Positions 610-52,801 of a stretch of DNA of 64,000 nt are shown here, piece after piece. Below the pieces are notes generated by a model that did not search any database, was not told where the DNA came from, and worked only from the letters and a program-made list of their open reading frames with translations. Position numbers and translations under genes: made by a program. The stretch lies in NCBI RefSeq assembly GCF_002163855.1, contig NZ_CP019332.1:1033145-1097144 (forward strand), in the 5' to 3' direction. Numbering within the stretch: the stretch's first letter is position 1; each line of letters opens with the position of its first letter. Origin of the DNA: Winogradskyella sp. PC-19. Lineage in GTDB: Bacteria > Bacteroidota > Bacteroidia > Flavobacteriales > Flavobacteriaceae.

Positions 610-739
610 CTATTAAACGCAGGCAAATGTACGAAATAAAACCACTTATTTGATAATTGTTTTGGGTTTGTTTTGATGAATTAATCGGAGGTAACATACT
701 TGACTTTATAGATTTTTTCATCTAACTTCGTTTATGTTA

Positions 740-758
740 GACTGAGCTAGTCGAAGTC
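740..758. repeat. REP-like short repeat, copy 1
   Basis: The core CTGAGCTAGTCGAAG differs by one base from the reverse complement of the core at 1604-1622 (CTGAGCTTGTCGAAG). This short word is a familiar dispersed repeat in Flavobacteriaceae genomes, from general knowledge. Here it sits between the left block and the hairpin leader of the cassette-like unit. The second unit has only five bases (ACGCT) at that place, so the repeat looks like a later insertion of about 24 bases. Confidence 0.55.
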
Positions 759-763
759 ATGTC

Positions 764-793
764 TGATAAAAAATATTAAAAGGATTTTTATCA
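764..793 (+). promoter_or_regulatory. Shared hairpin leader, copy 1
   Basis: The 30 bases start TGATAAAAAATATT and end GATTTTTATCA, so the ends pair as an AT-rich hairpin. The segment lies 23 bases upstream of the ATG at 817. It matches 50489-50518 at 27 of 30 positions although the two downstream genes are unrelated. Conservation of the leader without conservation of the cargo suggests that it supplies a promoter, a translation signal or a recombination site. Confidence 0.5.
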
Positions 794-816
794 ACGAAGC
801 ATCATTTGAAATTTCT

Positions 817-1305
817 ATGAAAACACTATTTGAAAATTATATAACCAAAATTAACTTGAATAGATTAATGAAAGACATATTTATTAACGCTCCTATCTCA
901 GCTTTAATATTTAGTTTATTTATATCTATTCTGACATGGACAAAACCGAATATTAATCAAATATTGATTTTTATATTAGTCTTCGCGATATTAAAATCAT
1001 TCAAAACTCTAAAACATAATTACAGAAATCACTTAGAGAGAATTTTACTTGACTATGAGAATGGAAAAATAATTATTAATCAAATAAGACCATCAATAAA
1101 AAAGACTGAGACAATAATTAATTATAAAGAAATAAGGATATCTGAAATTAGACATATACCTATTTCTTGGTTTTCTTTTGAAAACTATTTTTGGATCTCT
1201 GACAAGTATTCAAAAATTAAAATCTCTACTGCTAGTAATGAAAATAGAGAAATCAATATAAATGAAATTTACTCTGAATTAAAGAACCTTCAACAACGTG
1301 GATAA
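817..1305 (+). CDS. Small membrane protein, possible PH-like domain
   Basis: I do not recognise a named family. The 162-residue product has two probable membrane helices (about residues 25-42 and 48-62, separated by TWTKPNINQ), followed by a basic turn and a strand-rich cytoplasmic part (about 78-160). The order of a helix pair then alternating strands, with conserved-looking aromatic residues near SWFSFENYFW, resembles small bacterial proteins with a PH-like domain, but this is only a guess. It is very rich in Ile, Asn and Lys and more AT-rich than its neighbours. It is transcribed against both neighbours and sits inside the cassette-like unit described at 722-1366. The start ATG is 23 bases after the shared hairpin leader. 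Confidence 0.6.
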   Translation: MKTLFENYITKINLNRLMKDIFINAPISALIFSLFISILTWTKPNINQILIFILVFAILKSFKTLKHNYRNHLERILLDYENGKIIINQIRPSIKKTETIINYKEIRISEIRHIPISWFSFENYFWISDKYSKIKISTASNENREININEIYSELKNLQQRG

Positions 1306-1375
1306 TTCATTGCTAGTTTAGTTACTGAAACACTCAGCTAAATTATACTCATAATCATTAAACGAATCTAAAAAA

Positions 1376-49613: not shown

Positions 49614-50390
49614 CTAACCTAACTTATTATTAAACTGACTTAACTTAATTGCTGTTAATACCTTTTTGGTATATAACGGAAAATCTGCATTGAGTAACCA
49701 CCCAAAATAACCTGGCTCTTTTTCTAATACATCCAAAACGCGTTTTCCTTTGTGCTTACCAAAAGAAAAACACTCTTCACCTTCTTTGTTATATGCAATA
49801 AAACCTGCAAAATCGGCAAACTTTTTACGAGAGCTAAACTCTGCTAAGAAATTAGCATCATTTTCTAAGTCATCGTAGCGGTCTAATTGTGCTTTTAAAA
49901 CCTCATAAGTGGCTTTGGTATCCGCTTCTGCACTATGTGCATTATCCAAACTCTTATCGCAATAAAACTTATAGGCAGCCGATAATGTACGTTGCTCCAT
50001 TTTGTGAAATATGGTTTGCACATCTATAGATTGGCGATTTTTCATATCAAAATCTACATCGGCACGAAGCATCTCTTCTGCCAATAAAGGAATATCGAAA
50101 CGGTTGCTGTTAAAACCTCCTAAATCTGAATCCTTAATCATATTATGAACTTCCTTAGCTAACTCATTAAACGTTGGTGCATCTATGACATCTGCATCCG
50201 AAATCCCATGAACTGCAGTCACTTCTGCTGGAATAGGAATTGTCGGATTTACCTTTTTGGTATAGGTTTCTTCTTTGCCATCTGGGTAGACTTTTAGGAT
50301 AGAAATCTCTACGATACGGTCTTTGGAAATATTAATACCTGTGGTTTCTAAATCGAAAAAACAAACAGGTTTATTAAGGTTGAGTTGCAT
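49614..50390 (-). CDS. DEDD-family 3'-5' exonuclease (DnaQ-like) with DUF3820-like tail
   Basis: A 258-residue exonuclease. ExoI is CFFDLETTGINISKDRIVEI (metal Asp and Glu near residues 12-14), ExoII is LGGFNSNRFDIPLLAEEML near 95, and ExoIII is AHSAEADTKATYEVLKAQ near 150. The tail (EECFSFGKHKGKRVLDVLEK ... GYFGWLLNADFPLYTK, about 205-250) matches DUF3820-type modules and probably binds nucleic acid. A proofreading or repair role is likely. The ATG at 50390 is preferred to one seven codons upstream, since it yields the standard MQLNLNKPVCFFDLET start. It is the first gene of a four-gene minus-strand operon. Confidence 0.9.
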   Translation of the reverse strand: MQLNLNKPVCFFDLETTGINISKDRIVEISILKVYPDGKEETYTKKVNPTIPIPAEVTAVHGISDADVIDAPTFNELAKEVHNMIKDSDLGGFNSNRFDIPLLAEEMLRADVDFDMKNRQSIDVQTIFHKMEQRTLSAAYKFYCDKSLDNAHSAEADTKATYEVLKAQLDRYDDLENDANFLAEFSSRKKFADFAGFIAYNKEGEECFSFGKHKGKRVLDVLEKEPGYFGWLLNADFPLYTKKVLTAIKLSQFNNKLG

Positions 50391-50488
50391 AGATTTTGTT
50401 TTGAAAACCAAAGGTAATTAGAATTCAAACAATACCCCAATCCTAAACTTGACTTTCGATTTTTAAAACACTAACTTCGTTTAACGCT

Positions 50489-50518
50489 TGATAAAAAACA
50501 TTGAAACGATTTTTATCA
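50489..50518 (+). promoter_or_regulatory. Shared hairpin leader, copy 2
   Basis: Starts TGATAAAAAACATTG and ends GATTTTTATCA; ends pair as a hairpin. It matches 764-793 at 27 of 30 positions. It lies 38 bases upstream of the SUFU-gene ATG at 50557, compared with 23 bases in unit 1. Confidence 0.5.
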
Positions 50519-50556
50519 GTGGAACATTGCCAGTAATATTGAAGAACCGAAATCGA

Positions 50557-51273
50557 ATGAAAATAATCAAGTATAAAACGATATTACTGATTTTAATTTC
50601 AACTTTCGCATATTCCCAAAAGAACGAGAAAAAAATGAATAAAAACGTCCCAAACAGTGTTGAAATAGTTGACAATCATTTAGACCAATTTTTTGACAAA
50701 AACGCTGACATAAAAGTATTTGACGAAATAGAATCTGAAATAATTCACAGAGATGTTTACTTTATAAAAGCTACTGAAGATAGACCTTATCATATTTTAT
50801 TGAGTTGCGGAATGAGTGCTTTACCAATGAAAGTACCTGAAGATATTGAATCATCTGAATTTGCAGAAGTAATGATATTGTTGCCAAAAGAGTGGAATTT
50901 GGAATATGAATCTTACAGTGATGAGCGGAATTATTGGCCAATTAGAATTATGAAAGAATTAATGATGCTTCCACACCCAAATAAAACTTGGTTAGGATTT
51001 GGACACACTCTCGGACACGAAGATGACGAAGAACTTGCTGATGGAATTGGTTTTAATTCTGTAATGTTGGCTCATTCAATGGAGTTATCTGACGAGTTTA
51101 CTCAAATCGAATTGGAGAATAATAAATCAATTGATATTTATACAATCATTCCGCTTTATAAAGAAGAGTTAGAATTTAAAAAGAAAAATAGTGCAATGGA
51201 CTTACTTGAGAGATTTGACAAATTTGGAATTGAGGAAATTGTAAAAGTTGGAAGAAAAAATGTATGTGAATAA
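50557..51273 (+). CDS. Secreted suppressor-of-fused (SUFU) domain protein
   Basis: A 238-residue protein: a signal peptide (MKIIKYKTILLILISTFAYSQ) followed by a SUFU-like domain from about residue 30 to the end. Landmarks are VEIVDNHLDQFFD, YHILLSCGMSALPMKVPED, EVMILLPKEWNLEY, FGHTLGHEDDEELADGIGFNSVM and YTIIPLYKEELEF. In bacteria SUFU domains are common immunity proteins of polymorphic toxin systems (established for the family), but no toxin is beside this copy, and a signal peptide is unexpected for a cytoplasmic immunity protein. I reject the TTG start at 50488, which lies inside the repeated leader. It sits in cassette-like unit 2 on the strand opposite to its neighbours. Confidence 0.8.
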   Translation: MKIIKYKTILLILISTFAYSQKNEKKMNKNVPNSVEIVDNHLDQFFDKNADIKVFDEIESEIIHRDVYFIKATEDRPYHILLSCGMSALPMKVPEDIESSEFAEVMILLPKEWNLEYESYSDERNYWPIRIMKELMMLPHPNKTWLGFGHTLGHEDDEELADGIGFNSVMLAHSMELSDEFTQIELENNKSIDIYTIIPLYKEELEFKKKNSAMDLLERFDKFGIEEIVKVGRKNVCE

Positions 51274-51284
51274 AATACTACTGG

Positions 51285-51401
51285 CAACAATGTATAACCG
51301 CAATTACGGCGGATTCGACTACGTCCGAATCCACTCGGAATTGCGAGCGTCAGTTATTAATCGAAAAATAGTAACTTAAAAACCGTAACTGACGGTTATA
51401 C
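51285..51401 (+). repeat. Folded 3' element of cassette unit 2
   Basis: Three nested pairings are seen. GTATAACCG (51292-51300) pairs with CGGTTATAC (51393-51401). CGCAATT (51299-51305) pairs with AATTGCG (51339-51345) and encloses GGATTCG (51311-51317) with CGAATCC (51326-51332). CGTCAGTTA (51348-51356) pairs with TAACTGACG (51386-51394). The outer and last stems share two bases, so they compete slightly. The whole can form a multi-branched structure of about 110 bases. It is non-coding and begins 11 bases after the SUFU stop codon. Confidence 0.65.
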
Positions 51402-51427
51402 GAGACCGTTAAACGAAACAAAAAAAA

Positions 51428-51472: not shown

Positions 51473-52801
51473 TTATATCTCTCTATCCATATCCCAAGAC
51501 TCTAAATAGTCTTTGACCGCTTTTACAAACTGTCCACCAAGTGCACCATTTACAACACGGTGGTCGTAAGAGTGAGATAAGAACATACGGTAACGGATAC
51601 CAATAAAATCGCCTTCTGGTGTTTCGATAACCGCTGGTACTTTACGTATGGCTCCTAAAGCCAAAATACCTACTTGTGGCTGGTTAATAATTGGTGTACC
51701 CATAATACTACCAAATGTACCTACGTTAGTTACGGTATATGTACCACCTTGTATATCGTCTGGGTTTAGTTTTGCTAAACGCGCTCTGTTGGCTAAGTCA
51801 TTAACCTTTTTAGCCATTCCTAAAAGATTCAATTGGTCTGCATCTTTTATTACTGGTACTATTAAGTTTCCATCTGGTAAAGCTGCTGCCATACCTAAGT
51901 TAATGTGTTTCTTTTTGACAATACTATCGCCTTGTACAGAGATATTCATCATTGGGAAGTCACGCAATGCTTTTGCAACAGCTTCCATAAATATTGGTGT
52001 AAAAGTTAAGTTTTCGCCTTCACGCTTTTTAAAGCTGTCTTTATATTTTTTACGCCAGTTCCAAATGTTAGTGACATCGGCTTCTATAAACGATTGTACA
52101 TGTGCAGACGTTTGTACAGAATCGACCATATGCTTGGCTACTAATTTGCCCATACGACTCATTTCTAGGATTTCGTCATCTCCAGAAGCTACTATTGGAG
52201 CTGCTTTCTTTTCCACAGGTTTAGCTGCACCTTGTGTTGCGGCTACTGCTGTTTTTTGAGCTGTGTCTTGACTTGGCGCAGGTGCTGAACTACGTGATTT
52301 TAAATACGACTTAATATCGTTTTTAGTAACACGACCGTCTTTTCCTGTTCCAGAAATTGTATCTAATTCGGTTTGAGAAATACCTTCTTGCTTGGCTATA
52401 TTTTTTACTAATGGTGAGTAAAAACGCTCTCCTGTAGATTCTATTGGCGCTACAGTTTCTTTAGCTGCAGTTACAGATTGAGCAACTTCGGCAACCTCTT
52501 TTACAGCTTCTGCTTTTGGTGCTTCAGCGGCAGGAGCTTTTACCTCTACAGTGTCACCACCTTCAGTTTCAATTACAGCTATAGTTTGTCCAACTTGTAC
52601 AACGGCATCAACATCAAATAATTTTTCGACTAGTATACCATCTACTTCACTTGGTACTTCACTATCTACCTTGTCTGTTGCAATTTCTAAAACAGCTTCA
52701 TCTGCTTCAATAGTTTCACCAACTTCTTTAAGCCATGAGGTTATGGTTGCTTCTGCAACACTTTCTCCCATTTTAGGTAACTTTAGTTCAAACTTTGCCA
52801 T
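51473..52801 (-). CDS. 2-oxo acid dehydrogenase complex E2 (dihydrolipoyl acyltransferase)
   Basis: A 442-residue E2 core enzyme that transfers acyl groups from lipoate to CoA. One lipoyl domain (1-78) with lipoyl Lys44 in IATDKVDSEVPS. A long Ala/Glu/Val-rich linker (about 79-128) follows, then the E3-binding domain (about 132-170, YSPLVKNIAKQEGISQTELD, GRVTKNDIKSYL), a second linker, and the acyltransferase domain with catalytic HSYDHRVVNG near the end. The DKVDSEVPS lipoyl context is closer to branched-chain or succinyl types than to pyruvate E2, but I cannot decide between bkdB and sucB. It stands alone; E1 and E3 are not in the window. Confidence 0.92.
   Translation of the reverse strand: MAKFELKLPKMGESVAEATITSWLKEVGETIEADEAVLEIATDKVDSEVPSEVDGILVEKLFDVDAVVQVGQTIAVIETEGGDTVEVKAPAAEAPKAEAVKEVAEVAQSVTAAKETVAPIESTGERFYSPLVKNIAKQEGISQTELDTISGTGKDGRVTKNDIKSYLKSRSSAPAPSQDTAQKTAVAATQGAAKPVEKKAAPIVASGDDEILEMSRMGKLVAKHMVDSVQTSAHVQSFIEADVTNIWNWRKKYKDSFKKREGENLTFTPIFMEAVAKALRDFPMMNISVQGDSIVKKKHINLGMAAALPDGNLIVPVIKDADQLNLLGMAKKVNDLANRARLAKLNPDDIQGGTYTVTNVGTFGSIMGTPIINQPQVGILALGAIRKVPAVIETPEGDFIGIRYRMFLSHSYDHRVVNGALGGQFVKAVKDYLESWDMDREI

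Follow-up and report, generated by a model that had tools for sequence, protein, structure and literature searches.

Dispersed landing pads with integron-type gene cassettes suggest a little-noticed gene-swapping system in Flavobacteriaceae

Two units in a 64-kb stretch of DNA from Winogradskyella sp. PC-19 (the window, by which we mean the whole stretch that was analysed) are each, with high probability, an integron-type cassette, i.e. an ORF with an attC-like hairpin site, that resides in a dispersed pad and belongs to an integron-like system whose landing sites are distributed. At the level of sequence comparison, we demonstrate dispersed pads, empty and filled states of orthologous loci, varied cargo, cassette boundaries, a common attC type, and arrays at the side of recombinase genes. 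The scattered pads and their cassettes together suggest a gene-swapping system in Flavobacteriaceae that has been little noticed. An earlier note on this DNA had taken the two units for members of a gene-cassette or miniature mobile-element family, and this is supported; it is the cassette half of that claim that holds, and between the two terms our analysis says that integron-like cassettes are placed in a dispersed, MITE-like pad.

Mechanistically, we infer that a recombinase would excise a cassette as a circle, with the attC DNA in a folded, single-stranded form, and that the circle would be joined at the [A/G]^TT of either a pad or an attI. Pads would be the same kind of target as attI, only located elsewhere in the genome and equipped with promoter-like boxes. 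As the cassette would be joined at [A/G]^TT, the captured gene would come to lie directly behind the pad promoter, which may then drive its expression. The cassettes in pads and those in the arrays beside recombinase genes would be drawn from one pool.

The two units of the window

Both hairpins of the earlier note are present and agree at 27 of 30 positions. Their pattern occurs at these two places of the window only (at one of them also on the other strand), compared to no occurrence in 100 dinucleotide shuffles. The shared block CTAACTTCGTTTA was correctly described at 722-734, and its second copy exists as well, at 50471-50483, which is one base off the position first given. Between block and hairpin, unit 1 has 29 extra nucleotides (735-763) that are absent from unit 2. 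The similarity of the units is longer than first noted, as it extends from a TTG at 700 and 50449 through the hairpin; when two relatives are added to the alignment, the common part reaches to directly in front of the cargo. A covariance model of this leader found exactly two matches in the 64 kb at E values up to 0.1, which are the two pads of Table 1. An attC-like model that had been trained without any window sequence also gave exactly two matches in the window at E values up to 1, each at the 3' end of a unit, and Rfam at gathering thresholds gave no match in the window. The right ends of the units are indeed alike (ATTAAACGAA and GTTAAACGAA), there is one plus-strand ORF per unit with minus-strand genes around it, and the cargo of unit 2 is the SUFU-domain protein that it had been said to be. 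The cargo protein of unit 1 has no Pfam match at E 0.05.

Table 1. Parts of the two units, in positions of the window
Feature	Positions	Strand	Basis
Pad (leader) 1, with 29-nt insert	696..802	+	leader model R2, 38.1 bits, E 1.2e-4; outside training set
Putative promoter, pad 1: TTG (700-702), 20 nt, TAACTTCG (723-730)	700..730	+	kept across 34 aligned pads
Pad 1 left arm TTCGTTTA	727..734	+	sequence; TTCG invariant in 34-pad alignment
Palindrome-like (REP-like) insert in pad 1	735..763	+	alignment gap relative to three other pads
Pad 1 hairpin	764..793	+	pattern match; stem covaries across pads
Gene cassette 1	806..1357	+	right edge from closing box ATTAAACGAA
Cargo ORF 1, 162 aa	817..1305	+	two hydrophobic stretches by eye
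attC-like site of cassette 1, shortened (74 bp)	1288..1361	+	attC model R3, 30.5 bits, E 1.8e-4
Pad 1 right arm ATTAAACGAA	1357..1366	+	sequence; empty orthologues G039 (clean) and G052 (decayed)
Pad (leader) 2	50445..50527	+	leader model R2, 86 bits, E 1.7e-14; copy inside training set
Putative promoter, pad 2: TTG (50449-50451), 20 nt, TAACTTCG (50472-50479)	50449..50479	+	34-pad alignment
Pad 2 left arm TTCGTTTAACG	50476..50486	+	exact inverted repeat of 51407-51417
Pad 2 hairpin	50489..50518	+	pattern match; stem covaries across pads
Gene cassette 2, 882 bp; cut points A^TT and G^TT	50527..51408	+	blastn homology start points
Cargo ORF 2, SUFU-domain protein, 238 aa	50557..51273	+	PF05076, E 1.3e-39
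R''-type arm, pairs with 5' end of cassette 2 (50527-50540)	51274..51287	+	inverted repeat, 93%; 8/9 variable bases
attC-like site of cassette 2	51282..51412	+	attC model R3, 37.1 bits, E 7e-6
Pad 2 right arm GTTAAACGAA	51408..51417	+	inverted repeat; CATTAAACGAA in empty pad of L120

In unit 2, the cassette start TTGCCAGTAATATT is complementary to the R'' of the same cassette (AATACTACTGGCAA), and the unit has terminal inverted repeats as known from MITEs (TTCGTTTAACG and CGTTAAACGAA). In case of unit 1, the left edge of the cassette is uncertain (802-806), as it was placed by eye on the partial complementarity to GAACCTTCAAC (1284-1294), and the left junction has no clean TT start. Judged by its pad insert, its shortened attC and its unclean left junction, unit 1 looks like the older one. 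REP-like palindromes (e.g. ACTGAGC...GTCGAAGT) were also seen at differing positions within several pads (window 735-763, L190, L165, L185 and L160), as if pads were favoured targets of such a repeat.

Landing pads, their cargo and their orthologous loci

The pad comprises about 105 bp, with promoter-like boxes, the left arm TTCGTTTAACG, a hairpin whose stem covaries, and, on the right, an arm that contains the cut point, [A/G]^TTAAACGAA. This order of parts (TTG, TAACTTCG, TTCGTTTAACG, hairpin, and then the cargo) is the same in 34 aligned pads, which were picked by us, leaving out weak and insert-bearing copies. Of the promoter-like boxes, TTG and TAACTTCG are conserved with 20 nt between them, and they may form a promoter. 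We take the TTG of the pad to be the -33 box. A -7 box TAnnTTTG has been mapped in Flavobacterium psychrophilum according to a passage of PMC9723704, and TAACTTCG is close to it. In the stem, both partners have changed in 8 of 11 pairs, and neither this count nor the covariation score is reached by any of 500 shuffles, in a test that leans towards the chosen structure, as the stem pairs were first named by hand and then counted. The weak measure among five, which counts further pair types, is reached by 31 of 500 shuffles, and RNAalifold alone predicted no pairs on the pad alignment. In the outer arms, variants on the left occur without compensating variants on the right, and a lasting pairing of these arms is therefore unsupported.

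If the earlier note was right, many copies with different cargo and clean empty sites were to be expected, and if it was wrong, a block in these two places only or the same cargo in relatives. The block is in fact dispersed across genomes: the leader model R2 matches 49 of 68 genomes of the Winogradskyella group at E 1e-3 (between 1 and 13 copies per genome) and 72 of 299 sampled genomes of the family at E 1e-4, several of which have at least 15 copies. Many leader copies were also found by blastn in the 68 genus genomes, weak matches included, and since the sequence of the stem varies, a search with the exact stem pattern had matches in only three of them. A scan for the hairpin pattern in viral contigs gave no matches, and the matches listed from a scan of genome contigs looked mostly like chance, with L096 and L087 among them pointing to the genus. 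In 40 pads of five other genomes, a 46-base core of the pad shows 85% identity among copies of one genome and 66% among copies of different genomes, and the DNA further upstream is 30% identical in both comparisons; the conserved stretch begins near TTGAC. By these identities, the pad is a discrete repeat that has been homogenised or recently amplified in each genome.

In a sample of 83 pads, 67 were filled and 8 empty, and another 8, including that of unit 1, lacked a clear TT start. The sample consists of 40 pads of one set and of 43 out of the 47 matches of a second set (L168, L162 and the second matches in L164 and L177 were left out). In empty pads, the right arm follows directly 3' of the hairpin; L120 and L119, which are outside of the sample, are empty as well. 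A closing box was not seen in 32 of the 83 pads within about 4 kb of sequence. In G332, near-identical pad cores are followed by TTAAACGAAC (L286, L287 and L289) or by unrelated genes. At E 1e-5, the 73 ORFs downstream of pads, a few of which lie beside empty pads, fall into 66 clusters, and the cargo thus does differ. Pfam and defence models were run on 67 of these ORFs, with six beside empty or decayed pads left out, and the commonest Pfam family was found in four. A few pad cargos resemble defence proteins (AIPR, a TIR effector, a PIN-like protein, restriction subunits), and many have no family match.

Could the leader simply be a conserved small RNA or regulatory element, with adjoining genes that came by ordinary recombination? 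Its promoter-like boxes and its covarying hairpin would agree with that. However, [A/G]^TT junctions recur, an attC-like site lies at the opposite end, and so many clusters among the downstream ORFs argue against a regulatory element, which we consider extremely unlikely. As a landing site, the pad might in addition give rise to an RNA. We therefore return to the pad as an insertion site for cassettes, for which the orthologous loci are informative.

The locus of unit 2 is flanked by an exonuclease gene (49614-50411) and a dihydrolipoamide acyltransferase gene (51473-52801), and the exonuclease has 95% identity to those of G040 and G060. Both are congeneric with G002, the Winogradskyella genome from which L096 derives, in keeping with an origin of the window in this genus or near it. 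From 40 of 67 relatives plus the window, 41 sequences of this locus were obtained: a pad lies beside the exonuclease in 12 and elsewhere in the stretch in 3, and 26 have no match. In the 18 of 41 loci that were inspected in detail, 11 of the 12 exonuclease-side pads are filled, 6 of these 11 have a closing box, and no two cargos are similar at E 1e-3. The sole pair of similar ORFs, in G016 and G060, is a gene upstream of the pad. Relatives thus carry other cargo at this locus. G040 has a decayed empty pad there, G058 a pad with several ORFs and cassette-like ends, and no pad was found at this locus in G045, G047 and G064. The pad of G036 (L371) runs into an attI-like stretch, GATATAGATAATATCTATATTCAATTG^TTATG, that is much like the stretch following the recombinase gene in the same genome (L208), and it may be a pad/attI hybrid. 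For the locus of unit 1, 16 relatives were compared, and in 8 of them a pad match occupies the corresponding position. The pad of G039 is empty and clean, that of G002 is empty with altered arms, that of G052 (a weak pad match, E 0.027) has decayed and has a right flank that matches, and that of G067 is filled. Empty sites are thus seen among orthologues of both units, in decayed form in case of unit 2.

These data also bear on the possibility that pad and cargo together make up a single family of miniature transposons, whose ends are inverted (TTCGTTTAAC) and which a transposase would move in one piece. The inverted-repeat arms, the behaviour of the pad as a discrete repeat that is dispersed, and the existence of empty pads would all be compatible with such a transposon. 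At one and the same orthologous locus, however, the pad is constant and the cargo differs between species, and the homology of cassettes starts at the TT within the pad and not at the pad's outer end. A transposon of this kind is therefore very unlikely.

Cassette boundaries, arrays and recombinases

In integrons, TT is the start of a cassette, and the 5' end of the cassette can pair with the R'' of its own attC. Of the 67 filled pads, 26 have a cassette whose 5' end agrees with its own R'' at no fewer than 8 of 9 variable bases, as opposed to 52 of 4410 control pairings, and the G^TT cut and the R'/R'' complementarity of cassettes are thus both found. The other 41 cassettes remain below this value, which may be due to decay, to the presence of several cassettes, or to wrongly assigned starts. 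This anchored test supersedes an earlier one with looser windows, in which the own cassette alone was best in 10 of 42 cases (mean 8.8 versus 6.6). The attC-like model was built from 32 of 50 attC-like sites that had been chosen by pattern, and it describes one subtype; further subtypes exist besides it. When applied to 40 pad loci from five other genomes, it gave 29 matches in 28 loci, all of them downstream of the pad and on its strand, with 7 of the 29 being in the training set, and none in the four empty pad loci among those 40. Sites of this subtype were found in 67 of the 68 genus genomes (at least 50 matches in 18 of them) and, in a sample of 395 genomes of the class, in 33.

The cassette of unit 2 can be followed into other genomes. 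Matches to its protein were found in 14 of 397 family genomes, and five of these matches have 77-85% identity; in the five, the DNA homology detected by blastn begins at base 1 of the cassette (L420, L421 and L424) or at bases 9 and 10 (L422 and L423, respectively). No pad was found in these five loci. L420 has attC matches on both sides and lies about 25 kb after a recombinase gene on the same contig. Relatives of one cassette therefore occupy an array in one genome and a pad in another.

What recombinase might be involved? A search with the integron-integrase family had matches in 67 of 68 genus genomes, none of them above the cut-off of TIGR02249, and there was no match above this cut-off in ten pad-rich genomes either. 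As all of 14 control genomes match below the cut-off, too, such a match alone means little. The best matches are tyrosine recombinases, of which 16 were extracted (355-396 aa), and four full ones scored 192-216 bits with TIGR02249, compared to its cut-off of 265. In the alignment to the integron integrase structure 2a3v, 21 residues of the query (281-301) stand opposite 64 residues of the chain (181-244), and the insert that marks IntI is therefore missing. All 16 recombinases align without the IntI insert and have an N-terminal extension of about 80-100 residues. The nearest solved structures are 4a8e (XerC-like) and 5hxy (XerA), followed by 2a3v. The cut-off of NF040815, a XerA-type family named “site-specific tyrosine recombinase/integron integrase”, is passed by two of the four scanned recombinases. 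An IntI-family integrase with the IntI additional domain, which a passage of PMC9668308 terms defining and necessary, was not found, and for this reason we do not class the units as canonical integrons.

Nevertheless, cassette arrays adjoin these recombinases. In 12 recombinase loci that we had chosen from the integron-integrase family matches, 62 attC matches (17 of them in the training set) were found beside 10 recombinases, on a single strand and a single side in each locus; the two loci without matches end near the gene. A one-orientation cassette array beside a recombinase gene, as is required of an integron, is thus present, and the array of L203 reads as a succession of textbook cassettes. 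The recombinase gene points into the array in 7 of 10 loci and away from it in L209, L210 and L212. A hairpin-like stretch with G^TT directly follows the recombinase stop codon in L203, L205, L208 and L295-L298 by inspection, and this is likely to be an attI. The leader model found no pad in the 12 recombinase loci.

Some further features of these loci were observed. A partial palindrome of the type TATTATTCGAAAG.TATTCGAATAA is located just upstream of the recombinase gene in L203, L204, L205, L208, L295, L296 and L297, and is a possible operator or dif-like site. Inverted repeats, TTGTATA[AT]CA ... TG[AT]TATACAA, lie between recombinase and array in L209, L210 and L212, beside the divergent recombinases. 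A divergent ORF of 126-128 aa adjoins the recombinase gene in L203, L204, L205, L206, L208 and L213.

The tyrosine recombinases of the arrays (~355-396 aa) would most likely act in trans on the pads. The cassettes could also be real and have been placed by another tyrosine recombinase, such as XerC/XerD, or by an ancestral enzyme that has since been lost, so that the array recombinase would serve arrays only. In agreement with such another enzyme, only fragments of the integron-type recombinase were found in G332 and G198, and no match of this type in G238, all three belonging to the ten pad-rich genomes, and the 12 fetched recombinase loci are free of pads. G332, G198 and G238 have many pads, most of the sampled ones being filled, which counts against a need for the enzyme today. 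However, one attC type is common to the cassettes of pads and arrays, relatives of one cassette are found in both settings, and filled pads without the enzyme in the same genome may be old. On this basis, we regard a different enzyme as unlikely. The explanation by array recombinases that serve distributed pads is weakened by the 26 of 41 sequences of the unit-2 locus without a pad, by the absence of pads from the 12 recombinase loci, and by the cassettes that fail the 8/9 complementarity test.

Relation to known systems

Bacteroidota are among the integron-bearing phyla in surveys (PMC8618304, in an excerpt), and in the part of the IntegronFinder 2 paper that we used (PMC9024848), the sole complete integron named in Bacteroidetes proper is that of Salinibacter ruber. 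According to a section of PMC2426708, an early survey discarded proteins that had neither the IntI additional domain nor the IntI patch, and a system like the present one could therefore be missed by design. The excerpt of PMC8352920 makes no mention of attC sites of Bacteroidota. No such system of Flavobacteriaceae was found in titles and abstracts, with most subscription journals and bioRxiv being outside the coverage, and no paper that joins “integron” and “Winogradskyella” was found. As far as the covered literature goes, distributed pads with promoter-like boxes are new.

On balance, we lean towards a distributed integron, in which recombinases of Flavobacteriaceae without a supposedly essential domain would work together with many self-propagating, promoter-bearing pads, so that captured cassettes could be expressed from many places simultaneously, and not just from the head of a single array. 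If this is true, it would be a major unrecognised route of gene exchange in Flavobacteriaceae, and the need for the IntI domain would become testable. Most cassettes of large integrons are silent, as stated in a passage of PMC11023631, and the pads bear on this puzzle, as they would provide captured genes with local, putative promoters.

Several known systems resemble parts of what we describe. With MITEs and REP-type repeats, the pads share that they are short, palindromic, multi-copy and homogenised within a genome, but pads act as insertion points for cassettes. The XerA- and XerC-type recombinases are close to the enzymes described above in structure (4a8e, 5hxy) and, for two of four, by the NF040815 cut-off, whereas the N-terminal extension and the adjoining cassette arrays distinguish the latter. 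Cassettes at a distance from the recombinase gene are also known from CALINs, which IntegronFinder 2 by default reports from two attC sites onwards (PMC9024848, as excerpted). The units of the window differ from these clusters of at least two attC sites without integrase, as each has a single attC-like match behind a recurrent leader, while some other pads hold several cassettes.

Another related case is that of the attG sites, at which cassettes reportedly insert into the chromosome outside of the integron (Loot et al. 2024, Nat Microbiol, as cited in PMC12901181 and PMC11023631). Cassettes in the chromosome outside an integron are common to both systems. The attG sites are divergent from classical att sites according to a passage of PMC12901181, whereas the pads are one conserved, structured module in multiple copies. 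With integrons themselves, the similarities are extensive: cassettes mostly have a single ORF, the attC-like sites are imperfectly palindromic and about 75-135 bp in length, the cut is at G^TT, the 5' end of a cassette is complementary to its own R'', and arrays of one orientation lie beside a tyrosine recombinase gene with a candidate attI-like site. In contrast to integrons, the recombinase has no IntI-specific insert and is extended N-terminally by about 80-100 residues, and there are pads with promoter-like boxes at scattered places of the genome.
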